From Isoetes taiwanensis (Eukaryota > Streptophyta > Lycopodiopsida > Isoetales > Isoetaceae): a DNA stretch of 64,000 nt. The notes beneath the pieces are model-generated. The model saw only the letters and a list, made by a program, of their open reading frames with translations, did not search any database and was not told where the DNA came from. The stretch covers positions 3,719,678 through 3,783,677 of the forward strand of contig JAJEKV010000096.1 in NCBI GenBank assembly GCA_021234155.1, read 5' to 3'. The translations under genes were made by a program, and so were the position numbers. The stretch's first letter is position 1, and every line of letters begins with the position of its first letter. Positions 22,126 through 53,189 of this stretch are shown piece by piece.

Positions 22126-22429
22126 GATAAAATGGCCCTTAGCAACTATTATGGAACCTATGTAATAAACACTTTGGGTTGAAATGTCATTTTTTCTATT
22201 CTATTGTAGCTAGTCAACATGTGAAAGCGTGTAGCTGGGGGACAGTTTTGCGCTGGGCAAGCACCCCCTAAGCACCCTTTACAACATTTTTTTTGAATAC
22301 TTTTTTATTTTAGGTTCCCCCGTCATGCCCTTCACGTTCTTTGTGCAGCAGGCCGCTTCTGCTGCCTGCGACCCTAGCTAAATCGATCAATAGCTACATC
22401 GATCAGTAGCTAGTAAGACATACTTCGAC
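22126..22429. other. 5' flank of element 1 gene B
   Basis: Should contain the promoter and possibly the left end of element 1. I looked for the GGGTATAAAATCACT terminus of element 2 and did not find it. A CGATCAATAGCTACATCGAT imperfect repeat lies at 22,383-22,408. Confidence 0.4.
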
Positions 22430-25044
22430 ATGATTCACCCGATGGCTATGATTCCGGCATCTTTTGGAAACCCTAGTTGCATTTGTGTGGATCAAACAAC
22501 TGCATTTTGGACGCCCGAAAAGGTAGACCCTAAAGCTGTCTTGTTTCCTTTGATCTTTTTTGCATTCTTTTGCCTTTATCCGGCTCATGCATGCTTCTTT
22601 TTGTAGGCCAAAATGAGGTTTGCAAGCACTATTGAGGAATTTCAGGTTTATAGATTGCTTCCAAATGAAGGCAGAGATCCAGAAACTTTAACTTGGGCTG
22701 ATTGCCCCACATCTGATTTTCTTAGTGTGTGGAATCGTGAAGTGAAAGACAATAAGATCAAGCTCCACCAGGTGAGGCCAGAATTTGCAGATGATTTGCA
22801 TGATTTGGTACACAAGGTTTATCAGAAAGGCTTAAAAAATAAGGAAGCTAGGACAGTCTTTGCTAGAGCTTTTGCATGGCAGCATACTCCAATGGCACTT
22901 GCTCATCCTGCTAAATTTATAGTGAATTGGGCTAGATTTGCATGGAATAGAATGCGACTTTAAAGAGAGAAATACCCAAAAAAAAAACTGATATGGAAGA
23001 AATAAATTTGAAGAATGTTTCTTTCGCTATTTCATCTTTAGAGGCAGACTTAAATGTCCTGAATGATGCACTTGCTTTATTAGAGCTTGAACTCAAAGAA
23101 AAGCAAACTAAATTGGTCAGTGTGAATGGAATTTTGCAAGGGTATGACCTTGCAGCTACATCAATTTCATTAGATATACGGGAAATTAAGAACGATCTAC
23201 AAAGCTTGAAAGAGATTTGCCCAGATGAAGATGCAGCTTTGAAGCAAAAATCTGATGAAGAATGTGCACTAGGTCTTTCCTTGTTCACCATTTTGAAGAA
23301 AAAACAGGAGGCAGACATTCGGCCAGATATAGAAGCACAGATAAGACGGCTACGTGCATTAATTACTTATAAGCAGGAAAAGCAAGATGATCTGAAAACC
23401 AAACTAGCAAACCTGCAACATTTGAGGTCTTCATTCCTTACCACCACATTGATCAGGCCTTCTCCTGGAAATTGGACTATTGTTGACGATACAAGTGGAT
23501 GTGTACTTTGTGGCATGGCATTTAGTATCAATTTTGCCATGCATGTACAGCTCCAATGTGGACACAAGTTCCATTTATGGTGCTTTTAGAAGTGCATGCA
23601 GAACTTGCAATGTAATGTTTGCAACCTAGAGCTGCCAACAGACTTGTATTCGGAGCTGGGTTACGTAAATTTTGTACCTAACGTGGAGGATGAAGAAGAT
23701 ACTGAGACTGTGGCCACTAAAGGTACATGTAGTCATATTAACGATGAAGTTGTTGAATCTCCTCAGAAATTACCAGTAAAGAGACGTCCACAAACTCGAT
23801 CCATGACAAGCCCTTTGAAAGGTTAGTTTAATATTTCATATATGTTCAATAGCTGGATTATTTAATTGAAAGTATGCAGGAAAAGAAAAACAACACAAAC
23901 GGTTGAAGAAATCACAAGGAGAGAACGAGGGATTTGCTGAAAACGAAGACGCTGATTTGGAGCAGCGAGGTTTGAGTAAGTGTTTAGTATTTAGCTTGGT
24001 ATTTTTTTGCATTTGTACTAAGACATATTAAGCAGGTGTGGAAGATAATACGAGAGGTCTGGAAGCTAAAGTTACTCAAATAGGTAAGCTGCCTTCCCCT
24101 AAAATTTCACTATGCAGACTAGTGTTTCAGACTAAGATAAATTGCAGGAGAAGAAATTATAGGGGTCGAAGAAGTTCCACCCGATGAAGCTCCAATAGAG
24201 CAAGAACCACCTGATGAAGCTCCAACGGAGCAGGAACCACTTGATCAAGCTCCACCACATGTGAAAGTTGGAAGAAAGGGCGTACCAAAACACTTCAGAC
24301 CTCCAAATATTTCTGATGCACCTGCTACAAGACAGAAGCAAAGAAAGGTAAAGAAGCCAAGGGTTAATCAGAGGAAAAAGAAAGCTGCAAACACTGAAAA
24401 ACCTATGGACTCTCAACCGACTGCTCCTGCTAGCATGAAGAATACTTCGGATGCAACAACAATTGCTGCTGTAAGCACTGAAAATACAGTAGGTCAGTAG
24501 AGAACACATTGATGTTTTATTTCAAAACTTCTAGTACATTAGCATGTAATTTAAAACTATTGTGAATGGCAGGTACAGGTTGCTCGAATCAAGCAGAGTC
24601 TTGGAACTCTAGCCAAATAAAGAAGTTATGGTTTCCAACCCAGGTAGCTAATTGGCCATGCACGAACTAGAATCCTATTGGCTTTACAAATCAATTCACA
24701 ACTTTACCTCTGAAAGTCCACTTTTACATGGTATAGACCCTATCTTACCTTCTGCTGCTGCAGCCGATGAAATTCAATCTCCCCTACATGGTCACAGTTC
24801 ACCTTTGCATGCTCCAGACCGTATCATGCCTTCTGCTACAGCTGATGAAATTCAATCTCCCATCCGTGGTGGCAGTTTGCTCTTGCATGTTCCAGACCCT
24901 ATCGTGCCTTTTGCTACAGCTGATGAAATTCAATCTCCCGTCTGTGGTGGCGGTCCACATTTGCCTGCAAATGAATCTGATACGGAATCAGATGAAGATG
25001 GAGACATGACTCTGAAGCAATTTACAAAGAACATCGGCTGTTAA
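22430..25044 (+). pseudogene. Element 1 gene B: conserved N-domain, coiled coil, RING-like protein
   Basis: Exons can be traced: 22,430-22,522 (start MIHPMAM, GTAGAC donor), 22,607-23,821, 23,880-about 23,969, 24,036-24,083, 24,148-24,492 and 24,573 onward. The reading frame is preserved across each of these junctions. Domains: an N-terminal block shared with element 2 (SVWN..D.KIK..V.P..., FARAFAW, NW), a coiled coil (about 22,993-23,400), and a RING-like finger with CVLCGMAF..CGHKFHLWC..CNVC (C-x2-C, C-x-H-x2-H-x2-C, C-x2-C). A charged tail follows with PPDEAP/EQEP repeats and three 26-residue repeats (DEIQSP). Breaks: TAA at 22,961, a frameshift in an A-run near 22,980, TAG at 23,587 inside the RING, and a frameshift near 24,650. 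RING proteins often are ubiquitin ligases, but the role here is unknown. Confidence 0.65.
24730..24966 (+). repeat. Three 78-bp coding repeats in gene B tail
   Basis: Three in-frame tandem units of 26-27 residues, each with LH..D.I.P..ATADEIQSP, in the C-terminal tail of element 1 gene B. The frame stays open through all three, suggesting they arose while the gene was coding. Confidence 0.85.
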
Positions 25045-26179
25045 TTTACTCAGTTAAAGTATGCTAGTGCATGTATCTTTTGGCTGCGAAATGTCACTAC
25101 TGTAAAGAAATAAGACAAACCCGATGTAAATCCATCCAATTTTGCTGCCCTGATGTTTATAGTGCTGCCCTGATGTTTATAGTGCTGCCCTCATGTTTAT
25201 AGTGCTCTATAATACACTTGTTAGTGCAAGAAATGCCTTGTTTTGACCTAGTTGGTCATTTGACTAATATGCCATATATTTGGTTGAATCAAATTTTGGA
25301 TTTTGAAAACAGTCTGACAGATAAGTGCTGAAAGTGCAAAATAATGCAGTTGTCTTTTTTGGCAGGGAAACTATGTTTTGTATTATGCTTGGTTCACTGG
25401 TTAAAGATGAGCAAGGCATGACCTGCAGCTTTATATGATCTGTATGCTGTTATTCTATATTGCAAAACAGGGGAAATGAAGGAACCGGCCTGTATGCCTA
25501 ATCGCTACCCAGATGTTTTGTATGAATGTCCCAAAGCCAAAGATTCGGTTATGAACTGTTGTGTTGAACAGTACTTGGGTCATACCCAAATGAACAGTGG
25601 TTTGGACTTGAACCATTAAATATGCATTTTGTTTTTTAGTTTAGGGCCAAGTTGCCTGAAAATGAAGTGTATTCGACTAAAACAACATTTCCTCTTGCAA
25701 TCAAACTGTATATAAGTTGTGCCATCGATAAGGGAAACTTCACTTCACTTCAATCTGCATACTTCACTTCAATCTGCATACTTCACATAAAATTTTCAAA
25801 CTCACTTTAGGCAAAATATTTGTAAACTATGTAAAAGGAAAATAGTATTGCTTTTGTCAAGGACACGTCCTTGGATAGTTTTTAAGAACTATTGGTATGC
25901 ACTTGACTCAAGGCAAACATTGAGTTATTACAATTGAAATGGAATTTCTGAGAGCTCCAATGAATTGCTTGGCTTGTTTTCTAATCACATTTAAAGTGCA
26001 AGCTGTATTTTGTGCTTTATGTTCCCTAAGAAGGCTTAATTACAAGAGTTGCTGAAGGTTTTGCTTAAGGCATTTCTCTAAAAAACCTTAACTCTCTGAG
26101 CAATCAATTTTTCTAAAGGTCAGTTCTCTTATATAGGTTCAAATTGCAAACAGATAGCCTTCTATTTTTGTGAACAAGC
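25045..26179. other. Spacer inside element 1; short tandem repeats only
   Basis: AT-rich. Three 23-bp units of GCTGCCCTGATGTTTATAGT lie at about 25,141-25,207, and a 19-bp duplication (CACTTCAATCTGCATACTT) at about 25,745-25,790. No coding region is supported. Confidence 0.5.
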
Positions 26180-27105
26180 TTAAAGCATAAAAATAGTCTT
26201 CTTGGGCATTCTATCAAAGACAACCTTTGCATCTAGGGCACTACCGCACTTGCCATACATGTTAACGATAGCTGTCTCAACAATAATGTCCGGCACAATT
26301 CCATTACACAACCTGCAGGCATGTATCCATCGGCATTCCAAAAGATCTGCAAGACAAGCGTAAGCATGAAGCATGCATACAAATGGTACATTATCCAAGT
26401 TATCTGTACAAGCTGTCACCATAATGTTCCAAGATATAAAATTTCTTTTTACCATGTTCTGAAACATAATGTAAACATTGTCTAAGTATTTACATTTAGC
26501 ATACATATTGAGAAGAGCGTTTCCCACAATGATATATAGTTCATATCCTTCTTTTATAACATAAGCATGCATTCTCTTCCCTTCTTCCAAGTCTGACAGA
26601 CCACCACATGCATTGATAACGCTCACAAATGTCACCTTGCTTGTCTTCAATCCCTCATCTTGCATTTGTATAAAAACATTAACAGCATCAACATTGTGCC
26701 CATTCTGAACATATGAAGCATGGCATTCCAGGAAACAATATCTCTTTCCTGCATCTCGTTGAAGAGTTTGTGTGCATCTTTTAGACTTCCACATTTGCCA
26801 TACATTTCAACAAGAGCAGTTGCAACAATTATGTTTGATTCAAGCCCAAATGCCATAATGCACCTATGCTGGTCTGTCACTTTCTAAACTCGCAGCCCCA
26901 TTGAAAACAGCAACAATTGTGTTCCATGATCATATTATCAAACAAGCTGTATCTTCTAAGCTGTATCTTCTGCCACCATTCAGGATGTTCTAAAATCTGA
27001 GAATGAACAAGCTTACCTCGGGGAAGAATTTTATTATTGGTACACCATCGCAATAGCAATATAGTAGTATATGGTACTTCATGATCTGGCTCACATTTCT
27101 GAGAT
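26180..27105 (-). pseudogene. PPR protein fragment between genes B and A of element 1
   Basis: Minus-strand PLS-type PPR remnants are spread over three frames. The first is TTILLLRWCTNNKILPRGKLVHSQIL (about 27,090-27,000, first-repeat style). The second is ATALVEMYGKCGSLKDAHKLF with RDIVSWNAML (about 26,830-26,720). The third is NALLNMYAKCKYLD and NMYGKCGSALDAKVVFDRMP (26,700-26,190). Roughly five motifs remain, with no E or DYW region. Several frameshifts and deletions make it a pseudogene. It may be a captured host fragment, or it may have been there before the element if B and A are not one unit. Confidence 0.75.
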
Positions 27106-27369
27106 ATGTCCTTGCTTTGCAGTGTAATTTCCTTGCTTTTGCAACATGGTACTCCAAATGAGACAGGCTGCATTGAGAAATTATGACAATATTTGGCTCC
27201 TCCAGGGATGGATGTAACTGTAATGGCCATGTAGGGCAATGTACTATTTTTTACCTGTGATAAACAAGATACCTGCCAACTTCACCTGTGAAACAATCAT
27301 CTGCATTTCCCTGCCAAAATAATAAGAATGAATTACAAGAAATTGAAAAGCCAGAAATCACAACATGTT

Positions 27370-30300
27370 CACTACAAACCTGAACTACTTTTGGATTTAG
27401 GGTTCCTTCCAACTGTCTTAGACTTCACTCCAACTGCCTTCTTCTTCCCAACCTTCTTCTTTCCAACTGCCTTTTTTCTAGCTATTACCTTCTTCCGCAC
27501 AGCATTTAGAATGTCCTCTCTTCTTTCAACTATTTTCTAGCTTGTCTTGGAACTGCCAAGGGCTATAATGTCTCAGAATCTGGTGGTGGCAAGGAATCCA
27601 TGATATGCTCATGTGCTGCTAGAGGTAAATGGTACACATTATCTTCACCTAAATCAGCAAGTAACTCTACGTTTGCAGATATTACGAGATGTGAATAGCA
27701 ATTCACATCTGGCATATGGCTTAACAACTCGTATCTACCTTCACCAATATACTTGTAGGACTTGCCGGTTAGAATGACCTCTTGTCTACTGAATTTTGAT
27801 CCCCACTGATCCTTGAATGCTATTTCTACCATGTGCTTAGCTTCGGTGCATTTTACAATCCAGAAATCAACATTCTCTGCATTGTTGGCTTCTGCATTAA
27901 TGGCAAAATTGTCTCCAACTTGTACAAGTTCTGCTTTCCACTGGTTATCTCCTTCATATTGCACATGAGTGACTGGTGTATCCTCCTGCATTATCTCAGG
28001 CTTCAATTCAGAATATGTATAACGTTTCAATCTCTTTATGTGCTTGCACCTATTCCATAATCCCATCCAGCAACTAGTACAAAAGCAAAATAGAGGTCTG
28101 TGGGCCACCATGGTAGGTCTATTTTGGCAGATTGGCCTGATGGTATGAATGTTTTTTGTGCCCTTCAAGGTGTCACAGTCATATGTCACTTCCCTGCACA
28201 CCTCACCTAACTTTATAAGCCAAAATACCCTGTGCAGGACATTGATCACAATTAGTAAAACGCACACACATACAAGCATGTTTGTGAAGTCCTAGAATTT
28301 GATCATACCTACTGATTAAAGTGTCTTTGACACCTCTTTTCACTTGGAAATACCAAATCAAGAATTGTACAACATCCTCCGCATTCCTTAGAGGTGCGCC
28401 GTCCCTCTTTAACATTTCACTTGTAAGTATCCTCTTTATGACGGCACCAGCACCGTCATGCTCTCCCTTGCCATGGCAAGATGCAAAGAAATTCCATGAA
28501 ATCTTTATTGCATTAGATTGATAAAATCTTCCTAAGTGATAGAAGGCCCTGGAGGACTTGAACTGCGTTGCGCAACCATCAGACCAAAATACATGATTTG
28601 AATAGCATATACCTTTTTCCTTCAAGTAGTTGGCATGCTTCTGGAGGCAGTGTTGTACGAATAAGCTATCATGCTTTCGATCGTCTGATATGTAAAAGTG
28701 GGTCTCTTTCACCAACTTACGATCGCCAATTAGAAGGTTTGGAGTCTCGTCTTTCTTTGCATGTCTGTAAGTAATGTGCACTAGTATAGAACATTGATCA
28801 TTCCTCCAATGCATTGTCTGGATTTCCTGCTGAATTTTGAACGTATAGTTTTCTGCGAAGTCTATAACAGATACAACAGTATCCTTTGGGAATGTTTGCA
28901 AACATTCCTTAAACTGGTCTGCCTGCCACCTTGCCGTATAGTTATGGGGAATGAATTGTTTGATAACTGCATCAGCATGCTCCATAAATTCATGTAATGA
29001 TGTGCTCTTGTAAGCCAACTTCATAACGTCCTTCGTGGTGACTACTGGCTTCCCCCCTTTGCTTGTATCCTTTATATAGGTTTCTGTTGTCTGCAATATA
29101 AGAGCAAATTTGATGTTGCCTTTCTTAAATACCCAACATGCCAGCATATTACCTTGCAGGAGAAACATTTACTCTTATTTATCCTAAACTTATCCCTGGC
29201 TATAATTTACTTGCCTACCCTGTATGCATGTCTTATCCCTATGCAGGCCATAATTTACTTGGCTACCCGATATGCAGTCTTATCCCTAACCTCGTGTAAG
29301 CAACACTTACAAAGAGAACCCCATCAATACTTAAGCACATGCAACACTTACAGCAGCAACCCCATCAATACTTAAGCACATGCAACACTTACAGCAGCAA
29401 CCCCATCAATACTTAAGCACATGCAACCTTATAAGATCAAATAACCTATACTGAACTAGTGAAAGCACTCGCACCCTCCATAGCAACATTTAAACCACCA
29501 CAAGATAAATTAAATCATCTCTTCATGGCTAATCTAAACTATATCAAATAAAAGTCATAATCAAATTAATGTCAATCAAAGCATGCAACTAATGGAATGC
29601 TAACCTTCTCGAAGTTCTTCCAATCAAGCTTAATTGACTTGCGCTTCTCTTTGGGACATCTTTGGAATGATTTCAGACCACAAGCATTGCAGTCCATGGT
29701 CAAACAAGTAGACTTATACCAACCTGCAGTTTCATCCTTAGGACACACCATAGTTTTCCACAACTATTGAAAGTATGATTGCTCGCTGCACATATTGGGC
29801 CTGGACCACAGACATCACATTTGCATGTACACCTAGAACCATGGGTGTTAGAATCTCGTCTTAGCTTGTTGATTGCCTGCCTAACAAATTCCATTCTCAT
29901 GTGGTATATGCAGCAACATGTTTCCCTCTCTTTAAGCCTTTTCACAAACTTGGGCTTCAAAGTCTCAAACAACCTGAGACCTATTTTCATCTCTGGATAT
30001 TGATGCTTAAATTTCTTATAAAATGTGACCTGAAATGTAATAAACAATATAAGATAGAGAGAAGCTTTTTATTGTGAAAACAAGGAAGCAATTACATACC
30101 TGACTCTCTTCCAAGTAATGAAGTGGCTGCAGGTTATACGGCTTAGCAATCTTATCACCGTTATTATTTCTTCTCAATTTCATAACCTGCCTTTTATTTG
30201 GACAGACCCTAGTTTCAGAAATCCAAAAGTTGTATACCTTTTTGCGATCTTCATCCGATAGCCGATCAGATCTGCATTTCCTTTTGAACATAGACCACGG

Positions 30301-30561
30301 GCCTCCAAATTCAGTAAACTTTCTCCTGTCCAATGCGGCATACACTGCCTTTCTCCTCATGTTCAAAACCTTTGCAACTGCTGTCCGGTTGGTAGATCCA
30401 TTAACAGCCATCATCAAGGTGGATGCCCGTGCTTGATTGATGTCCTGTGTTCTAGCACTTTATTAGCTTGAAGAGTGTCCTTCATATTCTCAACAACATG
30501 TTGGTATACTTGTAATTTCCTGTTTCCAATGATCCCAAACTCATGTAGGTGTTCGGCTGCC
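27370..30561 (-). pseudogene. Element 1 gene A: DDE-transposase-like protein, nearly intact
   Basis: Minus-strand exons with good splice sites: 30,561-30,102, 30,029-29,605, 29,090-28,309 and 28,229-27,563, plus a lysine-rich tail at about 27,540-27,370 (repeats of KKAVGKKK). N-terminus: helix-turn-helix-like NRTAVAKVLNMRRKAVYAAL, then GGPWSMFKRK. Exon 2 has a Cys cluster (CTCKCDVCGPGPIC). Exon 3 carries the presumed catalytic core: VIDFAENYTFK, VFWSDGCATQFKSSR and FFASCHGKGEHDGAGAVIKR. These are three acidic positions in an RNase-H-like order, as in DDE transposases. Exon 4 has HRPLFCFCTSCW and VQVGDNFAI, also present in element 2. Only two frameshifts (about 30,450 and 29,775) and a late TAG break it. 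The superfamily is not certain. Confidence 0.65.
29297..29430. repeat. 41-bp tandem repeat in gene A intron
   Basis: Three units of GCAACACTTACAGCAGCAAC.. followed by CCCATCAATACTTAAGCACA-TG, within the intron between exons 2 and 3 of element 1 gene A. Confidence 0.9.
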
Positions 30562-32238
30562 CTGGATATGATTTATTTTCTATCAGCAGGATGCCACAAG
30601 GCCCCCAATAAGTAACTCGCATTCATAATCATGATGGAAACCAGTATAAGGGTGGTTTTTAATACATGCAACCAGGGCTCGAAAATAGCAATGTGCCTAA
30701 CCAGTAAAAATGCCGTTGGGTATTTGAGGCTACCGGAAAAAATATATATTAGTGCCTTTTCTAGTGTATTACGCCGGAAATTTTTTATTTCCTTGCCGGA
30801 AAATTGCCGGAATTTTTTTAGGACGACCGGAATTTAACACAAGTGGGCGGATTTTTAGGGGAGGAACTCCCCTATTTTCGAACCATGCATGCAACTCGTA
30901 ATGTCAATGAAAACTAGATGACTTTCATGGTTTTGTAATATCACTACTAGTTTGATCATAGTTCTTATACTAATTCTATGTCTTACACTAGTTTCTTAAA
31001 ATTATTGCTAGTTTAGGAGGTGATTTTTGAGCCTACATTGTTAATATTATAATCTATGATGATTTTACATACTGGTTAGCATGATCAGATACATGGTTTT
31101 AACCTAGTTTCAATCCTCCCAAGCTTTTTTTATTAGTTCAAGAACCATGTTTGATTTTGGAAGTGTGTTATATGTTTTTGGCACATGCTTATTTACTATG
31201 CATGTTAGCAGGCTATTATGTTGGTTTATGATATTGTTTTTTTATACACTTGTTTCAATCCTTAAAGTCATTATGAACTTTGAGCATAATTTCTTATATT
31301 AACTAGTAATTCCAACGATTATATCTATTTTTGCACTCCTTTTAGAGCATGATCCTTATTCGTAAAACTTAGGTTATGTACATTGACTTGTCTACTAGTT
31401 GCATGGTGTGGTCTATGTTTTCTACCATTATATGTAGCATAGTTTTATGTTGGGCCAAGTGTATATTTGTTCTTATAGTTGCCAATGCATTCTTTGTGGT
31501 ATAATATTTAGTATATCCATAGAGTGCACATTTTGTATGAAAGAGGATTTTGGATTATTTTAAGTGTTTATCATGCATAATTTAGAGGTTCCCTTGCATA
31601 ATTGGAGTGATGAGCAGCTCTAGAGGTATGGTGTAGATAATAACCCTTTTGCTACCAACATAAGATCCTTTTTTTAAACTCAAATAATATTCATACCCAT
31701 TGTACCATCTGGCAAAAGGCAATAGATGTTCGGGATTGGCGAACTTCACCTAGGCAGCAACTTAGAATAAAACATGCTTCACTTTCATGCAATAAAGAGT
31801 TACGAGAAATGCAAAAGCAATCTTGAATTCAAAGCATGATCCTAATTGCATATATTCACATTATATTAACTTCTAGTCGCCAATAAATCATATGAGCTCT
31901 ATGAACAACAATTTTCCTTGGCACTGTTTCATTCGATCGATTGATAAGGACCTATATTTAGCTATAAGTATCAATGGTCATATGAGCACCAACGATTTTC
32001 TCATGAAATTGCTAGGTCAAATATGCATGAGCATTCATTCATTAAAGAAATTCGCTAGATCAAAGATTCATGAACACGCAATCGTTGACCTTCAAGTCTA
32101 GAATCGCATCATAAATATATGACTTTGTTATTTTTTTAAACCAGGAATGCAAGCCATTCAATATAGTGGCGACAACTCAGATGTTTTTTTTTTAACCATT
32201 ATAAATATGAGCCATTTAACATAGTGGCGACACAATTG
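30562..32238. other. No gene seen; AT-rich
   Basis: Should contain the right end of element 1, which I could not identify. A GCCGGAA-rich patch lies at about 30,740-30,835. Beyond 30,900 the sequence is AT-rich with no coding region. Confidence 0.4.
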
Positions 32239-43404: not shown

Positions 43405-46289
43405 TTTTTTTTTTTTTTTTTTTTTTTTTATTAATGCAAATACGATAATTATGTTGGCTATGCAAATGGCAATTATGGCAATTTTGCCGGCTGTGTAGCT
43501 GAGAAACTGAGATTGGCATTGAGTATACTCAATCAGATAGTTACCTTTGACTATAAGATATCCATTATGTTAATTATCTTGCAGTGCAAGTTCATCTTTG
43601 GGTAAATTCAAGGGCCACGGCCCACGTGGTTTTTTTTGACATGGAAGTTTTATTTTTTGACATGGAAATGAATGATAAAGCTTTTAGATGTTTTAAGATA
43701 TGCATGCATTGGATTTAAATGCATGTTGGAGATGTGGAGGTTAACATGCAAATAATGCATGTAACTTTTTACCAAAGCTTTGCAAAACGTGGATGGGCTT
43801 TGCAAAACGTGGATTTTGATGGAGAGTTTCCATGGGCTTTGCAAAACGTGGATTTTCTATCGTACTATTACCATAAGGTATGTCGTATTGTATTGACATA
43901 TTTGCATATTAAATTTTTAGTATGGATCAGAGCATATTGCATATGCTCAGAGCATATTTTGCATATTGCATACTGCTCAGAGCATCAGAAAAGCAGGCGG
44001 ATATGGTCAAAAGCGCGTTGCCAAAATTTATGGTAGCTCCTCTAGACCTAATAATAAATATGTGCCGGTAAAGAACAGATGTGGTCAGATTGACCCATAT
44101 AGAATTTTGGACTGCATAAGCTTATGTTTTTCCGGATACCCTAAGCTAGAGCAGCCTTCTCCAGCGGCCAGTTTTGAATGGGTTAATTCCAGCATATGCC
44201 TTGATGTTTTGACGCTCCTTGAGCAAAGTTTCATATCTATCCGGGTCTCTATTAACACCTACGGATTCAGTAGCAGAGCTCCAATGCAAAATGGCTAGAG
44301 GTTGCTGCAGATGCCTTCTGTAGTAAATGGTTCAGATGGAATGGACAATCGCTCAGATAATCCAGTTCTCAAGAACTTTGTTTTAGTTTTCCCTTCTAAT
44401 GCAAAGGGTTATGCCATTATATGGATGAGGATCTGGCCAAAATCGTGGCTTCAATGGCAGAGATGACAGAATGGGTTACCGAAAAATGTATTATCGTTCA
44501 ACAACAAATGCCAGGAGATCATATATCTGCTCAAATGCCAACTTGACACAAGATTCAGAGGAAGATCTCCAAAACTTACAGGTTCTTTTAATCTGTTTCC
44601 AGATTTTGGCTTTCATAATATACAGGGCATTTGATTTGTTCTATTTAATAGGAACATTTAGTCTCCTTTTGTTTGGGGTTGTTAGATAGAACCCTGTAAT
44701 GCTGAGCATGGATATGTCTACATGAATAACTATGCAGAGTTACTATGCTGGCATATTACTATGCATGGATGGATGAATAACATGAATAACATGGATGGAT
44801 GTCTACTTGAATAACTATGCTGGCATATTACTATGCAGAGTTTTGTGTCCCAATAAAATACCGGTCATGGCCTAGTAGAGGGATCAACTGTCATGGTAAT
44901 TAGAATGTTTACATTCTTGAATTTATACAATACAAGAAGGATCTGATGACCTATGCATATCCGCTGGCCATGTGATAGAAAGTGATGTATGATAAGCTCT
45001 TTAAGTGTTGGCAGATGTCTATGCAGTTGCATTTTTTCTCCATGTATTCTTTTAGCTATTTTCAACTGGCAGGGCAAGAGGCACAATGGGTAATCAGCGA
45101 AGAGCTGAAAATCCCAATGTACCTTTTGGCCCTTGCCCTGATACCATTAACATGCTAACAGGGTATTGATTGGCTGCAGGTACGGGATTTTCTTCCCATT
45201 GTTCCCTTTGCTTTTGTAGTTGGATTTGGCTGGAAGAATGATGGAGATCTTACGCATTTTGTTGCTGAAGTTTGTCACTAAGAAGTTTACATTGGCAAAG
45301 GCATCACATAAACGGGTTTTTTTTAGAATATTATCATTTTAGCTTTGCTTTCTAGCAATAGTCTGTGACTAGAAAAGATCAGGCTTGTAATTAAAATACT
45401 ATCTGCTACATTAGTCTCCAGATATATTGAAACAATATGATGCTTACTGGATAAATACTTCTTGCAATGATTTATGATCAATACATGCTGAAATGCTTAA
45501 ATATTGACAAGACATTAATGATAAGAAAAGTACTTTTGTTGAAATATTATGATTCTATTGTTACTTTATGGATGAAAAAATGCTATATTGGCTGAAACAT
45601 ACAGGAATGAACAAGTAAAAATGGGTAAAAGGACACTGATCTAGAAATGCTCAGTCTAGTATCAGGGTGATAATATCGCCAAAGGATTGGCCAGAGCGTA
45701 TGTCCAGTCTAGGTTTACTAGTTCAGTTTGGTTTTTTTTTAGACACTTCATCACACTGGAGATATCTGGTGTTGTCCTCTACCTATTGGCTAGTTGTATG
45801 AGCATTTAAGCTGTCCTAAGCTGCAACTTAGGAAAAGTAAATATATGGCTGATTGCATTGATATTTCTAGTAGACAACATATTGATTTTGCAAAGTTACT
45901 TTTCTGTTAGATATTATTTATGCAGGACGCATGTGATGAGGAAGAATATGAGGTTATACCACCTACATGATACTATGGAAACATGCAAAATGCAACCAAG
46001 ATGAGATTGGCCATGAGGCTTGACACTATACTGATGCCAGTTGGCTCTATAGTTGTCTACTTTACATATGCCAGTTGGCTATATAATTATTTCAATATGA
46101 CAGCACACAACAGCACAGTGTGCTCTAGTTGGTGCTATAGTTTCCAAAAACTCCATTAACAAGGTATGTTCTAAATCTAGAATTTCCTTCTAAATCTAGA
46201 ATTTCCTTCTGCTTTAAATTATGGGATGAGGCTTAACCCCTGCTGTGGCAGTGGGGGTTAGCTCTCCCCATGGTCATAGATTGATATTA
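43405..46289. repeat. 2.85-kb tandem array, unit 1
   Basis: First of four near-identical units (others at 53,190, 56,092 and 58,918). It lacks the first ~40 bp (TCAAGGTGTGTTTACCCTCA..) of the other units and starts at a T25 run. Each unit contains three GCTTTGCAAAACGTGGAT motifs and scattered short frames. Fragments such as MDEDLAKIVASMAEMTEWV look protein-like but are not embedded in a traceable gene. It is separated from unit 2 by element 2. Confidence 0.95.
46286..46289 (+). other. Target-site duplication ATTA, left
   Basis: ATTA precedes the left inverted repeat of element 2 and is repeated at 53,186-53,189. Units 2-4 show the single ATTA of the empty site (GATATTATCAAGG at 56,085 and 58,911). 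Confidence 0.9.
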
Positions 46290-46307
46290 GGGTATAAAAT
46301 CACTCGT
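46290..46307 (+). repeat. Element 2 left terminal inverted repeat
   Basis: GGGTATAAAATCACTCGT, the reverse complement of 53,168-53,185 except one base. Confidence 0.9.
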
Positions 46308-46444
46308 GGGGTTGAAAAAGTAGTGTCCGGACGTCTGCTTGCTTTGCTTTGCTTTTGCTTTATCGAATTGCTTTGCTCGTTCTTCTCAGCACACAGCGAA
46401 CTGTGAATTCCCCCCAAACTCGATCACTCCTACGGATCGATGAC

Positions 46445-46627
46445 ATGGCTGTCCGATTATTGGGGAATCAGTTACGGTTGGCTTTGGCGGGAGGAATGAT
46501 GGAGTGTAATTGCGAAATTGAAGGAGGCAGGTTGGCGGGAACTGTCCTCTCTTGCCATTCTCAGAATTTGGTTACGGTGGAGAATCAGCGGATTGGAGTT
46601 TCTCATATTCATAATTTGAATGGATGA
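46445..46627 (+). CDS. Short ORF ahead of element 2 gene A
   Basis: A 60-residue ATG frame starting MAVRLLGNQLRLALAGGMME, immediately upstream of gene A and in the same direction. It may be a 5' exon of gene A or a separate small protein. No family is recognised. It overlaps the end of the left subterminal region. Confidence 0.3.
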   Translation: MAVRLLGNQLRLALAGGMMECNCEIEGGRLAGTVLSCHSQNLVTVENQRIGVSHIHNLNG

Positions 46628-46639
46628 AGATGAGAAGAG

Positions 46640-49600
46640 ACTGATTTTTCGTGAAAATTGATCTTTGCCGAAAAAAGAGGGAATCAAGGAAACGCAAAAG
46701 GGAATTGATGGAAGCGCCTGCTAATTCCAAAGAATTAAGCCTCAGTGTGAGAAGAATTCAGGAGATTTCAAAGGATATGCATGATTATTTTGAGGATCTG
46801 ACAAAACATGCCAATGCTTTAGATAAGGCTGCTATTGTGGACAGATTTGTAAGAAAGATAGAACCAAATGTACCTTTACAAGTAAGCGTTGCAGACAAAA
46901 GAGAGACAAAGGTTATGCAAAAAGTGATTGCTAATGTGAAGGAAACTATGCAGCTGCACAAACGAACCAGAAAGATTGACATTCTGGCAGCAAAAAGGTC
47001 AACTTTACAAATGGTTACATCCACAGAGAATAAACTTAATCATTCTGCAGTAGCCAGGCTGCTTGAAGTGCCTAGAAAATCTATTTGTGCAGCCTATAGA
47101 AGAAGAGTAATGGCAGAAAGGGAATCAGGTCCCTGGTCTATGTTTTTGAGGAAGAAAAGGTCTGATTCTGTCAGTGATGAAGTGAAAAAGGTTGTCTCAG
47201 TTTTCTGGACTGAAAACACAAGAGTTTCTCCATACAAAAAACATGTGAGGAAGTTTAAGACAGAAAATGGCAATAAAGTTGACCATCCAATCCATTTGCT
47301 TGAGGTCTCCCAGGTATTTATATCTGGAATGTTTCTGGTCAGCTGTTAATTTGTAGTGTTTGATAAAACTTTTCATGTTGAAGTTGAACAATTTATGCTT
47401 CACATGTTTTATGTATGAATTTGCTATCTGCATTGTTTCAGTCCCTATTGCTTTATAAATTTGCATTCTGCAATGTCTCAGTATCTTTGATTAATTACTT
47501 ATTATGATTGATTTGCTTCATTGTTTCAGTACTTTCATGATTTTGCTTTATGCATTACAAAATGAATTTTACATGTTGTCTGCAGCTCCAGTTCTATATG
47601 GCTTTCAAGCAACAATATCCACATATCAACATTGCACAACAAACATTTGAGAGGCTGAAGCCTTCATTTGTTAGAAGACTTCATGAGAGGAAACTTCTTT
47701 GCCAAGTCGATTATCACATCCATTTGGAATTTGTTCTTCAAACACCGAACAGAATAAGAACAGACCTAGAGGTGTTCATGAAAATTGTTCCCGCAATTGC
47801 GGTGTGTGTGTGAGAAGGAGATGAATGCAAAGCTAAATTGATGACTTACAAGTCTACTAGTGAGTTGTGGAGGGAACTTGTATGTGAAAAGCAAGATCCC
47901 TTAGAAGAATGGCACAAGCATTCTGTCTGATGGTTGCTTGTAAATCTTGTGGTTTGAAAAGGTACATTTAACATTCATGTATATCTATTTTGGAAATGAG
48001 CTAACGTTGTAGCTTTGGATTGCCAATCATCCAAAGGAAAAAGACAATGAAAGACATTTACATTGAGTGGAAACAGTTTGAGAAGGTATATTAATTTGTT
48101 TTAGTGTTATTTACTTTTTACTCAAACTTGTTTAGGACCTAACATCACCAAATTGTCTGCTGTATTGCAGCAAGAGCCCAGTAATTTGAAGGAGAGTTCA
48201 ATTAAGTAAGAGGGGAGGAAAAAAACCAACTAAAGTCACAAGATTAGCATACAAGTCTGCTCCAAAGACAAGAGTTTATTCAAGATGCCAACAAGACACT
48301 TGTGCAATTTGTTCCACATAATTACATCGGCACATTGGAGGGCAAAGCAATTTAAGCAATGCTTAGCCAACTTTCCAAAGAATACTATTGTATCGATGAA
48401 TTGATTTTCTTTGAGAACTATAGCCTCAAAATTCGGAAGGAAGTACAATCATGCCATTGGCATACCGACCAAATTACTATTCTTGTTCACATTACCTATA
48501 GACATCCCTCTGAAAAGGAAGAGGAAGAATTTAGGAACACAATCGATCTTGTTCGGATCGAGAAACAAGTTCAGTACGGATCGAAGAATAATTAAGAGAC
48601 ACATTTTTACATTTCTGATTGCAAGGAGCATTCAACTGAGTTTGTCAACCACTTGCTTGAAAGTCCATGCACAAAGTGGCTGAAACAAATGAATATAGAG
48701 TACAAAGAACCATGTTTTTGGAGTGATGGTTGCACATCTCAATTCAAAGGTGCGGACCCTTACGGTACATAGGTAGAAATTTTGTGAACAATCCTACTCT
48801 GAATATTTATGGTGTTTTTTTGCAAGTTCTCATGGTAAAGGAGAACATGATGGAGCTGGAGCTGTTTTGAAATTAATTCTAGCAAAGGAGCAACATACTT
48901 CATTTTATGCTCTGATGGAATTGCTTTGATGCTTTTGCTTTTTGCTTTTGCTTTTTGCTTTTGCTTTGATTAATGCTTTGACTAACTTTGCTTTGAATTG
49001 GCTTTGCATTTGCTTTCTGCATTCATTAAATTTGCTCTGCATTTGCTTTACATCCTTATGTTGGCTTTCATTCAATTCCAGTGGATGTCTCATTACTTTT
49101 GATTTACGCTTTGATTATCTTTGCTAACAATTTGCTCTTGCATTTGCTTTCTGAATTTGCTTTGCTTTGCTTTTGCATTAACTTGCTTTGAGTCAATGCT
49201 TTCCAGGTACTTTTGGAATATTGAAGCTAAGGACATAGATAAGTCTGAAAAGAAGGAATGGAAAACTTTGAATGGGAGCTCAAAGTTACATAGCATTAGG
49301 GCACTTGATAGGAAGGATCCAACAAAAAGTGAGTACCGGATGCCTTGCTTGTTTTTGCCAAGCATGTTTTCATGGAGATTGGGATAATTGCATTAACAAG
49401 AGAAGGATAGGAGGCTGGAAAGAAGGTGTATTAAAACCAAAAGAAGTACAACCCGTTGAATCTCCCGTATTATCCAATGAGGAGGAGGAAGAAGAAGATG
49501 ATGATGATGAGGGTGAGCTTGATTACCTCGGTGACATCTTAGAAGTTGGGGATAACTTTGCTGTACTGCGAAAGAAAATAATGATGAGGGTGTCGACTTT

Positions 49601-49900
49601 TACTTACTGCGGTGTCTTGAGACAAAGCAAACATTCTTTGGATTCTTATGTTGATGAGTGGGGAATGTATACAATGTTGGAGAGGTTATAGTATCAGGGC
49701 CACTACTATCAAGCAATTAGACACTCTAACTTTTCAATTGTTTGGTGGACAAGCCCGGTGGCTTCAATTCTGACCACTTGGTAAGGCATGTTAAGTTTGA
49801 CATGAATGATATTGGTGGCAACATGTACATGTTAGGAGAAGAGACCTGCCAGAAAAATCATGTCATCTTTACTTGCTCGGGAATGAGTTCAATGCTCTCG
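46640..49900 (+). pseudogene. Element 2 gene A: DDE-transposase-like, decayed
   Basis: Homologue of the minus-strand gene at 30.6-27.4 kb, with matching exon order: 46,640-47,313, 47,586 to about 47,965, 48,013-48,085, 48,171 to about 48,930 and 49,207 onward. Shared blocks include LNHSAVARLLEVPRKSICAA with ESGPWSMFLRKK (HTH-like region) and FERLKPSFVRRLHERK. Further ones are ENYSLKIRKEVQSCHW, CFWSDGCTSQFK, HGKGEHDGAGAVLK (read across frames) and ILEVGDNFAV. Many stops and frameshifts occur, and the first acidic position of the presumed triad is disrupted (CIDELIFFENY in place of VIDFAENY). Some breaks may be consensus errors. It is not functional as read. Confidence 0.65.
48925..49200. repeat. 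TTTGC-rich degenerate repeat
   Basis: Some 20 short blocks of TTTGCTTT, TTTGCATTTGC and similar lie in the position of the last intron of gene A. Shorter tracts of the same motif are at 46,332-46,375 and 53,117-53,147, near both ends of element 2. Confidence 0.85.
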
Positions 49901-50281
49901 ATTTGGGTTTCAGTTCACAAGTGCATAGTACAAAACATTGACATTCATATTGATATTGTTACAACAGTTTACAATAGAGTGCACAATGATGTGCATTCAA
50001 AATCGGCAAACGGGGAAAAAAAATTATGTATGCGGGTATATTCACATCTAACATTACATTGCACAATGATGTGCATTCAAAATGTGGCAACCAGGAAGAA
50101 AATTTTATGGTTGCCGGTGTATTTTTCACATCTTACACTTTTCTTGACATTCCTTAACATCCATTGCCTCACAAACTGTCTTCCGGGAACACGCAAGAGC
50201 GAGAACTCCGATTAAGGTAAGAAGATATGGCAAGCCAAACAAATCAAACAAATCAAGCAAAAAAATAAATTGCTTACCGAA
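49901..50281. other. Spacer inside element 2
   Basis: Between gene A and the phosphatase gene. Contains a ~75-bp imperfect direct duplication around TGCACAATGATGTGCATTCA (49,987 and 50,059). No gene seen. Confidence 0.5.
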
Positions 50282-50966
50282 GTTCCATCATGGCAACCGC
50301 ACATTTCCGCGGAATAGCCCATCTTGGATTCTCCCGCACATGCTTGGAACACAAATCCAAAATATCAAAGTCTTCTTGTTTGACAATTTACGGGGCAAGA
50401 TGTTCTTTCACAAATTTTGTAGGCTCGGGACTTTCAGCCCAACCAAACAAACATCCTTCATCTTTTCAAACCATTACATTGCCCTCATCAAACTGAAATG
50501 AGCTAACTATTAAAGAATGGTACACTTGGTGAAAAAAAAAAGATTTATCTGAGAGAATCATCCACCAACAAGACATTCTTCATTTCAGGATATGCTTCAA
50601 TGACATAAGAAAGTGGCTTCAAATAGACCGGCTTGTCTGGATTGGCTGGGTGTGGATAAGGCAATTTCAAACATTGTGCTCCTTCCCAAATGAACTTGAA
50701 CTTAATAAGATAATCTGCAGGCAACATCTGCTGCAGGCACTCAATGATGTTGTAGCGGTTCATACTGGACCAAATAGCAATTTCAAAATGTTCTAGGGCC
50801 CAGTCCATGAAATTATGCAAACCTGGTCTGCAAACCAGCACTTTGTTGGTTGTGTACAGTTTCTTCAGATTTGCAGGTATTGGTGTTCTGTGTTTGTCAT
50901 GCTTATGCCAACTCTTCATAAGCACACCATTCAAATCAAGGACCAACAGTTTGTCTTTGTGCCTCC
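50282..50966 (-). pseudogene. NIF/FCP1-like HAD phosphatase carried by element 2
   Basis: Minus-strand exon after a TTGTTTGTAG acceptor at 50,967. Motifs are KLLVLDLNGVLMKSW (HAD motif I), VLVCRPGLHNFMDWAL, IAIWSSMNRYNI (motif II, S/T) and KNVLLVDDS (motif III/IV). This is the catalytic fold of CTD-phosphatase-like (NLI-interacting factor) proteins, which dephosphorylate serine/threonine. Motif I reads DLN where most FCP1-like enzymes have DxD. TAA follows LVDDS, but the usual C-terminal part continues in the next ~260 bp with shifts (KFVKEHLAP, NPRWAIPRKCAVAMMEL, ending near 50,282). It lies between genes A and B. It could be element-encoded or captured host sequence. Confidence 0.65.
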
Positions 50967-51237
50967 CTACAAACAAGAGATACATTTTAAAAACACTTTA
51001 GACACAAACTAAGATATGACATTGTCAACTATGAAAAGATTACAGATTCACATATTCAATGAAAACATTTTATTTTAATGAAAAGTTTACAGATTCTAAT
51101 ATTTAGAAAAGATTTTATTTTAACAGAAATCTTACAAATTGAAAATATGACAATGTCAAATACAGAGTGGTTTACAGGTTCAAAGTTTAGCCCTTCCCAT
51201 TATAGGCATCTAATATTCTTTCTATTGGAGTCGTTTG

Positions 51238-51411
51238 TCACCTTTTTTGTAACTTGCACCTTCTCAAAGAACTACTTTGGGAATAGGTTTGATTGCTTTC
51301 TTCTTTTTGCTGGCCTGCCCGAAGACGCTTCCTTGAATTCTTTGTATTCTTTGTTGCATCCTCTTGAACTTCTCTTCCATCCTCCTCGATCGACTTCTTT
51401 GTCTTGCTCAT
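51238..51411 (-). CDS. Small highly charged ORF in element 2
   Basis: A 57-residue ATG frame starting MSKTKKSIEEDGREVQEDAT, rich in Lys, Arg and Glu. It directly follows the last recognised exon of gene B in another frame, so it may be gene B's C-terminal tail after a frameshift, or a first exon of the phosphatase gene. No domain. Confidence 0.35.
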   Translation of the reverse strand: MSKTKKSIEEDGREVQEDATKNTKNSRKRLRAGQQKEESNQTYSQSSSLRRCKLQKR

Positions 51412-53030
51412 CCACTGCTGGTAATTACATTTGTGGCATCCGCAATTGTGACCACCAATTTGTCCGACTCCTGGCGATCCACAATCTGTGGGTTATGCGT
51501 TCCCGCGGCATTCGATGTGAATATCCGAGTTGGAGTTACGGGATCGGGAAGAATAGTCTGGCGAGGTTCAAGGCTAGTTTCCTTGATATTGATTGTAGCT
51601 CTTCTCAACCTGCTCTTAATTCCCAAAGAAGCTCCTTCCCTCGAAGAACTTGGAATATTTTCTAAAATACCTTCATATGCACGGTCAGAATCACCAGCAT
51701 CTTCATCTTCATCAGCAAATTCACCAAATTCATCTAAATCCACATAGTCATCATGTTTCCTTTTTGTTGGTAACTTTTCCTGCAAATAACATGACCAAAA
51801 CTTTTCAACAAAAGCAATTTTCACAAATAAAGCAAAGCAAATAAATAATACTTACTTTCTTAGATGATTCTTACGTTTCTTTGTTCTTCTTTTTTCTTCT
51901 CCTTCATTTGCATTGGTCTCTAAGCCAAGTTCTTCAAAGAATTTCATTGGGACATCCATAGAACAATCCAGGCATTTTTATTCTCTACAAGAAGCGGTAC
52001 TGCAAATTAAATGATAAGCATGTTGGCATGGTAGCACTGCACTAATCTTGTAGTCATCTTGGAAAGCTAATCCACATGCAGAACATGGTATTTCATAACA
52101 CAATGGCAACCTGCTTTGCAATAACTTGAACTGAATACAGGAGGCATTTACACTACTCAAGTTATAGCAATTAGCCCTGTAATTCTTCCATTTGAGCAGG
52201 TCCCTTTCTAGCACTCCATGTAATGCTTCCAATTCATTCTTCTTCTCAACTTGATGATCATCCACCTTTTCAATAAGGCTCTCTAATTTCCTGCAATAGA
52301 ATTTCTCCTGCATCAAGTCCTGCATCAAGTCCTCAATTCTTTTCTTATCAGAATCAGACTTTTCTACTTTGGATTCCAAAAAATTGATCTCAGCCTGCAA
52401 CCTGCTTATGTCTTCTCTGCTTGCTTCGATCCTGGCAATATCTCTCTCATTCACATGTCTGTTTAGGGTGATCTTGCTTGCAATGTCTGCCAGATCTTTC
52501 TTGCACAATTCAAATTCACCCTCCAACCTATTCACTTCTTCATCCAAGACCCTAACATTAAACATTAAGCTACCTCTGTTTAGCAAAGGAACAAAGACTT
52601 GCCCGAGAGTAAACCTGCATTACTTGGCTTCAATGGTGTGGGATTTGGTGTGGTTCTTCTGCTCTTTGCCTGGAGAGGTCAAGTTTTCGCCAGGGAATGT
52701 TTTGGTTCGAGCTTAACTAGCTTCCTTGGGTACCTGTCAACTTGTTCTTTAAATGAAACCCAGTTTATCTTGTGTTCGTCCGGGTTAAGAGCTGCTCGAC
52801 TACAATTCTCCCAAGTAAATGCAAAGGCAAATTTCTTCCTGAGCTCATTGTTCGCCAGACCATGAGGATAAAGCTCTGAGATAAGAAAATCTAGCAGTTC
52901 TTTTAAATGAGGCTTCACATAAAATTTCTTAATTTTACCGTCAGTGAAGCCATGATTCCAGACTGATTCCCAATCCTCGTCGATGTTTTGATCCTCCAAC
53001 CATTTAATCCATTTCTCGCGGTACCATTCC
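51408..53030 (-). pseudogene. Element 2 gene B: conserved N-domain, coiled coil, RING-like protein
   Basis: Minus-strand exons at about 53,030-52,734, 52,551-51,856 and 51,780-51,408. The first junction keeps frame (DR|VLDEE). The N-terminal block (ESVWN..DGKIK..VKPH, GLANNELRKKFAFAFTW, INW) aligns with element 1 gene B. Next is a ~130-residue coiled coil (LDEEVNRLEGEFELCKKDL onward), then a RING-like finger: CSACGLAF..CQHAYHLIC..CLDC. An in-frame TAA (51,978-51,980) falls between the last HxxHxxC and CxxC, at a different place from the TAG in element 1, so the two nonsense changes are independent. The last exon is acidic (DEFGEFADEDEDAGDSD). No ATG was found in frame; a frameshift near 53,035 would connect to MAMK. 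Confidence 0.65.
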
Positions 53031-53167
53031 TTCGTCGTAAAGCTTCATCGCCATCGCCCGAGGTAGTTATGGCGCCAAAATTCGATTCCGAGCTAACCAA
53101 ATGTGAACCAAAAAAGTTTGCTTTTGCTTTGCTTTTTGCTTTGCTTTTTCGCGTTTTTTTGTACCCG

Positions 53168-53185
53168 ACTAGTGATTTTATACCC
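53168..53185 (-). repeat. Element 2 right terminal inverted repeat
   Basis: ACTAGTGATTTTATACCC, the inverse of the left end, with the second ATTA directly after it. Confidence 0.9.
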
Positions 53186-53189
53186 ATTA

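Follow-up and report, generated by a model that had tools for sequence, protein, structure and literature searches.

A putative Sola-like transposon family with convergent transposase and RING-H2 genes in Isoetes taiwanensis

Two decayed elements in the window

A 64,000-nt stretch of Isoetes taiwanensis contig JAJEKV010000096.1 (genome size 1.66 Gb), referred to here as the window, holds two related copies of a mobile element. Each copy has two genes that face each other: gene A, which by its predicted anatomy encodes a transposase with three acidic aspartates (DDD), and gene B, which encodes a protein with a helical N-domain, a coiled coil and a predicted RING-H2 domain. Copy 2 has a third gene, gene C, that resembles HAD phosphatases. 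Both copies belong to an abundant and diversified family of terminal inverted repeat (TIR) DNA transposons in the I. taiwanensis genome. Members of the family occur in many copies, are bounded by TIRs and 4-bp target-site duplications, carry two or three genes per unit, keep their predicted catalytic and zinc-binding residues and are under purifying selection, for B on few usable pairs. We consider it probable that they represent a Sola-like TIR transposon with a dedicated convergent RING partner, B, and, in some lineages, a HAD partner, C.

The relationship between the two window copies was examined by BLASTP of translated frames. Gene A is common to both, with 45% identity in the N-terminal part (E value 3e-24), 49% in the middle (1e-17) and 49-58% in the main core blocks. 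The N-domain of gene B is 39% identical between copy 1 and copy 2 (1e-15), and its coiled coil and RING part 20% identical (3e-6). A preliminary description of this DNA had proposed two related mobile elements with a convergent A/B plan in opposite overall orientation. These alignments, together with the TIRs and duplications found across the family, bear out the relationship, and the convergent plan and opposite orientation of the copies were confirmed.

Relatives fetched from elsewhere in the genome carry L numbers and are assigned to a copy-1 type (including L001-L008) or a copy-2 type. Copy 1 begins at a decayed TIR at about 22219 and ends at 30593, the point to which homology to L002, a near-complete relative, extends. 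This end point falls inside gene A, and copy 1 has neither the right TIR nor the first part of that gene; L002 extends about 760 bases further and reaches its own TIR. In copy 1, gene B is broken by a frameshift near 22960 and by a stop at 23587. Copy 2 occupies 46290-53185, with 30-nt TIRs at both ends that are 87% complementary and ATTA outside each. Its A gene is frameshifted, its B gene is interrupted by a stop and its HAD frame is shortened. The features are as follows.

Copy 1
22219..22250, no strand: left TIR with decayed outermost bases, GTGAAAGCGTGTAGCTGGGGGACAGTTTT; homology to L001 and L002 stops at 22221, 2 bases inside their TIR
22607..22960, + strand: gene B helical N-domain, 95.6% identical to L001 B and 96.5% to L002 B; 150 places scored genome-wide (the best 150 of 2066)
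22951..23826, + strand: gene B coiled coil and predicted RING-H2, CVLC...CGHKFHLWCF*KC...CNVC, with the frameshift before it and the stop at 23587 within the RING loop
24580..25044, + strand: pseudogenised C-terminal tail of gene B, with SWNSSQIKKLWFP and an acidic SDTESDEDGDMTLKQF end, motifs common by reading to the L001, L003 and L004 B tails
26180..27239, - strand: captured PPR gene fragment; PF01535 at E value 3e-15 on 26180-26794, and no Pfam match at 0.01 on 26877-27239
27566..30593, - strand: gene A, predicted DDD transposase, 5' truncated, by homology to L001 and L002
28206..29168, - strand: gene A putative catalytic exon, with D103, D197 and D238 of the frame invariant in 10 of 10 aligned cores

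Copy 2
46286..46289, no strand: left target-site duplication ATTA
46290..46319, + strand: left TIR, GGGTATAAAATCACTCGTGGGGTTGAAAAA
46645..49688, + strand: gene A fragments with frameshifts, by tblastn and blastp to A of other loci
50283..50985, - strand: gene C, HAD/NIF phosphatase-like; PF03031 at E value 3e-13 on 50545-50985, motif I DxN, 3' part broken
51855..53044, - strand: gene B, with the N-domain at 52682-53044, the coiled coil and RING at 51855-52619 and a stop within the RING loop
53156..53185, - strand: right TIR
53186..53189, no strand: right target-site duplication ATTA

Copy 2 also holds simple-sequence runs of the GCTTT/TTTGC type, at 48926-49200 in the A region and at 53120-53155 beside the right TIR.

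TIR-bounded units and the pairing of genes A and B

Sixteen loci (L001-L016) were chosen for listed proximity of A and B and for mostly open frames, and are thus a non-random sample. A TIR pair enclosing both genes was found in 13 of the 16, which with copy 2 gives 14 bounded elements; self-comparison detected no such pair at L003, L004 or L013. The bounded elements are 6.6-8.7 kb long, with TIRs of about 27-31 nt. A GGGT start is common to the TIRs across lineages, both in the copy-1 type (GGGTGAAAGCGTGTAGCTGGGGGAC) and in the copy-2 type (for example GGGTGTAAATTTGATATTGGTACCC); L006 and L015 deviate from it at their left ends. All 14 bounded elements have identical 4-bp flanks, 12 of them as first placed. 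The flanks of L005 and L006 match after boundary shifts of 1 and 2 nt, which were chosen once the flanks had been seen. The duplications read CCAA, CATG, CGAG, ATAG, TTAT (three times), TCAA, ATAA, TGCT, TTTT, AGGA, AGAT and ATTA; for the TTTT of L012, shorter lengths fit as well. The conserved parts of A and B lie within one TIR pair in all 14 bounded elements, and A and B therefore move as one unit. The open frame that served as query at L011 and L014 extends past the TIR at its non-conserved end.

The flanks of two of the elements, at 588-1586 of L015 and 2-1318 of L016, hold open frames adjoining the element that by eye resemble retrotransposon integrase. These two elements may be insertions into or beside long terminal repeat (LTR) retrotransposons.

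Pairing of the two genes was then counted across the genome. With the copy-1 A core and B N-domain as queries, the best 124 of 9330 first-look candidates for A and the best 150 of 2066 for B were scored; with the copy-2 parts, these were the best 150 of 5884 for A and the best 150 of 2150 for B. The counts use 124 copy-1-type A places, with second-match rows dropped, 149 copy-2-type A places, with one second-match row of C1083 dropped, and 148 copy-2-type B places, with two overlapping rows (C985 and C1083) dropped. The pair fractions are lower bounds, since the lists hold the best 124-150 of thousands of candidates. A listed B lies no more than 10 kb from at least 35 of the 124 copy-1-type A places, in convergent orientation at 34 and divergent at the other, and from at least 44 of the 149 copy-2-type A places, where all 44 pairs are convergent; both counts include the window copy. 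Random placement of B gave means of 1.0 (copy-1 type) and 2.0 (copy-2 type) pairs, with a maximum of 6. Positions in this null were drawn up to the largest coordinate seen on each contig, which makes chance pairs more likely, not less. The preliminary description had proposed to test whether A and B lie convergently within 10 kb of each other at many loci, and among the listed places they do. Pairs across the two types are rare among these places: a copy-1-type A lies within 10 kb of a copy-2-type B once, and a copy-2-type A within 10 kb of a copy-1-type B never.

Eight A loci without a listed partner were read directly (L017-L024; six of the closest unpaired A places and two from a distant group). 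B was found downstream in the correct orientation in five of the eight, in two of these only as a small part. Protein distances of A and B are correlated across 18 loci (r = 0.89; 0 of 5000 permutations as high), and within the two lineages the correlation is 0.61 (7 of 5000) and 0.95 (1 of 5000). The 18 loci are those left of 21 after L026, L031 and L032, which have too little of the A N-terminal part, were dropped.

Proteins encoded by genes A, B and C

Gene A appears to be a DDD transposase by its anatomy, and catalysis would follow from that assignment. In Pfam and NCBIfam the frames scanned match nothing above cut-off, and the PDB search by sequence returned only weak zinc-finger and BTB rows (E values 0.13-0.14), none of them convincing. 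Every one of the 10 aligned A cores has the three aspartates D103 (VIDFAEN), D197 (WSDGC) and D238 (GEHDG). In a low-confidence AlphaFold model, Asp 261 lies on the first core strand (256-262), Asp 355 ends strand 350-355, the fourth core strand, after the first long core helix, and Asp 396 stands directly ahead of the last core helix (398-410). The order of strands and helices around the triad in this model fits an RNase H-like arrangement. Foldseek with the model returned a mixed list (EndoV, NTPDases, Tn5 transposase, Argonautes and esterases), and VIA-align with residues 245-390 a list that we take to be of RNase H-like and actin-like folds; neither list speaks against any particular transposase family. 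The view of A as DDE-like in the preliminary description is thus supported by the invariant triad and, at the confidence of the model, by the order of its core.

Ratios of nonsynonymous to synonymous substitution rates (dN/dS) were calculated for all three genes as a rough guide, as live and dead copies are mixed, and pairs were dropped if dS lay outside 0.05-2 or was saturated. For the A core, 19 of 153 pairs were kept (121 were saturated), and for the A N-terminal part 10 of 55. The A core gave 0.06-0.13 in 13 of the 19 kept pairs (dS 0.35-1.9) and 0.22-0.50 in 6 close pairs.

Gene B is predicted to encode an E3-type protein with a helical domain, a coiled coil and a RING-H2 domain. In the model of B (mean pLDDT 73, lower in the RING) the helical N-domain covers residues 7-123 and is followed by a long coiled coil (148-281) and the RING. 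No fold could be assigned to the N-domain from the structure lists, which the coiled coil fills. A pattern scan found the full series C-x2-C...C-x-H-x2-H-x2-C...C-x2-C, the zinc-ligand pattern of RING-H2 proteins, in 19 of 44 stretches, which come from both lineages and L026; two of the 19, those of the window copies, have a stop inside the loop. The pattern was not matched in the decayed or incomplete B of L010, L014, L015, L020, L024, L027, L031 and L032. All eight zinc ligands are invariant in an alignment of six long B frames. A profile of B matches the RING-H2 domains of RLIM (E value 2e-4), RNF38 and Arkadia in the PDB. These results agree with the three-part layout first proposed for B. 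By reading, copy-1-type B ends in a conserved acidic tail. The dN/dS of B was 0.19-0.24 in three pairs with dS 0.38-1.04 and 0.34-0.49 in two close pairs; 8 of 55 pairs were kept and 42 were saturated.

Gene C, of the PF03031 HAD type, shares the strand of B and is flanked by the 3' ends of B and A. Copy 2 has it, as do 8 of the 8 copy-2-type loci retrieved. A tblastn search (1e-4) detected no gene C in copy 1, in L001-L008 of the copy-1 type or in L017-L024, the last with one side of A covered. A genome search with PF03031 scored the best 150 of 3263 candidates. Among these, 6 places have a listed copy-2-type A no more than 10 kb away and are convergent with it in every case (null mean 0.4), and 7 are as close to a listed copy-2-type B, always on its strand (null mean 0.6), which together make 11 distinct places near a listed copy-2-type A or B. 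Positions in this null were drawn in the same way as for the A/B pairs. None of the best 150 lies near a listed copy-1-type A. Eight HAD places were also taken at set ranks of the list (L025-L032), and five of these have A and/or B in the same layout (both at L026, L031 and L032; B only at L027; A only at L029). Of the remaining three, L025 is an FCP1-like gene by motif and L028 and L030 lie in another repeat. By reading, one further lineage (L026, L029, L032) also has gene C, after B and on its strand.

The L011 copy of gene C matches PF03031 with an E value of 3e-19 and a dullard-like domain with 2e-10, below the curated cut-off. The only solved relative found by sequence is UBLCP1 (3shq, E value 6e-5), a proteasome/C-terminal-domain (CTD) phosphatase. 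Active HAD phosphatases have the motif I DxDx(T/V). Gene C departs from this by an Asp to Asn change: motif I reads DxNGV(L/A) in the 12 transposon-borne copies in which it was detected, and DxNGV in two copies from the other repeat (the pattern allowed D or N). Eight further HAD frames read DLNGV, and only the FCP1-like L025 has DLDHT. Gene C thus shares the PF03031 match with the FCP1/SCP/UBLCP1 phosphatases but differs from them in motif I, which predicts weak or no phosphatase activity. The dN/dS of gene C had a median of 0.27 over 51 pairs, with 0.16-0.32 at dS 0.59-1.11 and 0.47-0.73 in eight closer pairs. These are 51 of 136 pairs, with frames shorter than 150 amino acids and two frameless loci left out; in an earlier set, 4 of 15 pairs were kept and ranged from 0.34 to 1.09. 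From these values, gene C is maintained by selection.

The preliminary description had regarded the middles of the two copies as different cargo. A one-off HAD cargo was rejected, as the gene recurs in copy-2-type loci and in rank-sampled places and is under purifying selection. The HAD gene is thus a conserved third gene of the copy-2 lineage, and only the PPR piece of copy 1 appears to be captured debris. PPR repeats lie within 25460-27270 of copy 1, a stretch missing from the close relatives L001 and L002, and a functional part was rejected for the PPR piece on this ground. The nearest long matches are at C1050:12029138-12030778 (85%) and C912:930261-932197 (88-92%), and the latter sits between a listed A (C912:928405, +) and a listed B (C912:934836, -). 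Exon-like pieces of the fragment have 95-98% matches at several other places. The PPR piece is probably a captured fragment of a host gene that is carried by a sub-branch of the family. Weak tblastx similarity was seen in the middles of L005 and L006, which may be further captures.

Two other observations concern HAD genes. L028 (2496-6299, -) and L030 (2505-6301, -) belong to a second repeat with several open frames, in which a DxN HAD gene stands beside other open frames that both loci have. The three L028 frames searched had no Pfam match at 0.01 (one reads ...FVVIAGQHSMRAMQLL...), and no A or B match was found in about 3 kb on either side at L028 and L030. Strong PF03031 places (SCP-like phosphatase) are clustered on C1018 at about 22.9-23.0 Mb and 26.0-26.8 Mb and are possibly host paralogues.

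Relation to known transposons and possible mode of action

The Sola superfamily (Sola1, Sola2 and Sola3) was reportedly described by Bao et al. in 2009. According to the available part of PMC10741241, Sola elements have a DDD transposase, 4-bp duplications, a size of mostly 2-9 kb and TIRs of 11-1124 bp, and are present in moss and apparently uncommon in flowering plants. The parts available of two other papers place Sola1 in Physcomitrella and also Capsicum (PMC9033089) and Sola repeats in the fern Ceratopteris (PMC6890710). The elements described here agree with Sola in their 4-bp duplications, size and TIR length and in the predicted DDD triad of gene A; they differ from it in the convergent RING-H2 and HAD partners, which none of the Sola descriptions in that part of PMC10741241 mentions. 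Since the structural features agree, the elements would work like a Sola element. Judged by structural description rather than by transposase sequence, they likely belong to Sola. The preliminary description knew of no named plant DNA transposon family with a dedicated coiled-coil/RING partner gene. That the elements belong to no named family is doubtful, as their structure fits Sola by description; for the RING partner, no description was found in the papers searched.

It is possible, though we regard it as doubtful, that the elements belong to a Sola (Sola1) family already in the catalogues, with a second protein familiar to Repbase curators, in which case only the host would be new. The structural agreement with PMC10741241 and the naming of Sola1 for Physcomitrella in PMC9033089, each as far as the available text goes, speak for this. 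On the other side, no description of a RING or HAD partner for Sola was found in the literature searched, a scope outside which Repbase Reports and subscription journals fall. Within the same scope, the RING/HAD-partnered layout seems to be new.

Two-gene transposons are known from other families. RAG/TransibSU likewise consists of a transposase and an accessory protein, and in the RAG1/Chapaev group a RING is associated with the transposase side, whereas here it lies on the partner B (available text of PMC4411706). TransibSU has a 5-bp duplication (CCAGG), a Kelch-PHD partner and a head-to-head sea urchin locus in the same text, unlike the 4-bp duplications and convergent genes of the elements described here. 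Gene A had no match to RAG1-like sequence by Pfam or PDB sequence search. MuDR/Mutator is a plant element with two convergent genes, mudrA and mudrB, of which mudrB is not known to encode a RING protein. Mutator elements have 7-12-bp duplications, and their TIRs are comparatively long, in some cases more than 300 bp (PMC10741241, available part). The elements here have 4-bp duplications and TIRs of about 30 nt and differ from Mutator in both. PIF/Harbinger elements have a transposase and a dedicated Myb-like second protein, with a 3-bp duplication; the elements here differ in their 4-bp duplications, and the A frames scanned had no match to DDE_Tnp_4 (PF13359). In the I. taiwanensis genome as a whole, the best 150 of 1704 DDE_Tnp_4 candidates are strong, many with open frames longer than 400 amino acids.

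A less likely explanation than a catalogued Sola family is that B, and C with it, are passengers, host genes that were captured once by an ancestral element, co-duplicated with it and are not needed for movement. The PPR capture shows that such capture occurs in the family, gene C was not found in the copy-1-type loci examined, and the dN/dS case for B comes from few pairs. Against this, dN/dS is below 0.33 for B (dS 0.38-1.04) and for C (dS 0.59-1.11), the zinc ligands of B are kept in both lineages, and B diverges in step with A; the PPR passenger, by contrast, is broken and patchy. That A and B are independent repeats adjoining by chance in two places is refuted although both have high copy numbers, since convergence holds for 78 of the 79 listed pairs at distances of up to 10 kb, where the null gives means of 1 and 2 pairs, and common TIRs and duplications lie outside both genes.

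A Sola-like transposon with dedicated partner genes is the reading that we prefer, and several results weigh against it. Both window copies are broken, decayed elements, and the evidence for conservation comes from one genome. No relatives were found in viral contigs, in bacterial and archaeal genomes or in plasmids, searched with narrow peptide patterns or a single tblastn. B sequence, also counted in favour of passengers, was not found at three of the eight list-unpaired A loci, with 8.6 kb fetched each, one of the 35 copy-1-type pairs is divergent, and one HAD place on C1040 departs from the usual pattern in being upstream of a copy-1-type B and on its strand. For gene A, the AlphaFold model has a mean pLDDT of 46, Foldseek against the PDB gave nothing at E values of 0.001 or less, and all Z scores of the weak VIA-align matches are below 8. 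Close pairs have dN/dS of 0.22-0.73, one pair of the earlier gene C set reached 1.09, and three cross-lineage pairs of B, near saturation, gave 0.52-0.56. Since other B pairs give higher values, the estimate of selection on B rests on the three pairs with the lowest.

For the Sola-like transposon with partner genes, we propose the following mode of action. A would bind the GGGT... TIRs of roughly 27-31 nt and would cut and join with a 4-nt stagger. B would most likely be a transposition partner that joins A through its coiled coil, and may also serve as an E3-type RING adaptor with A or a host factor as its target. Where a lineage has C, this protein would most likely be a phosphate-binding one, a weakly active or inactive phosphatase, that supports the role of B. 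The PPR piece would have no role in mobility. More speculatively, the partners could form a ubiquitin-pathway kit within a TIR transposon, with a RING-H2 protein for the transposase and, in some lineages, a UBLCP1/FCP1-like pseudophosphatase. Such a kit might stabilise the transposase, or remove or re-route a host silencing or repair factor, and so act as a counter-silencing module; we hold this idea tentatively, as one that may well prove wrong.

The usual picture of a plant DNA transposon is that of a transposase accompanied, if at all, by a single DNA-binding helper. Conserved helper genes of the kind described here look unusual for this group and may reveal how such elements handle their host. 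With a constrained RING-H2 partner and a lineage-specific HAD partner within one TIR pair, the family is a tractable example of a transposon with a possible effect on ubiquitin or phosphorylation control in its host, and the parallel to the RAG-type two-subunit recombinases is a testable one. Annotated RING and HAD "genes" in I. taiwanensis and related genomes may be transposon genes.

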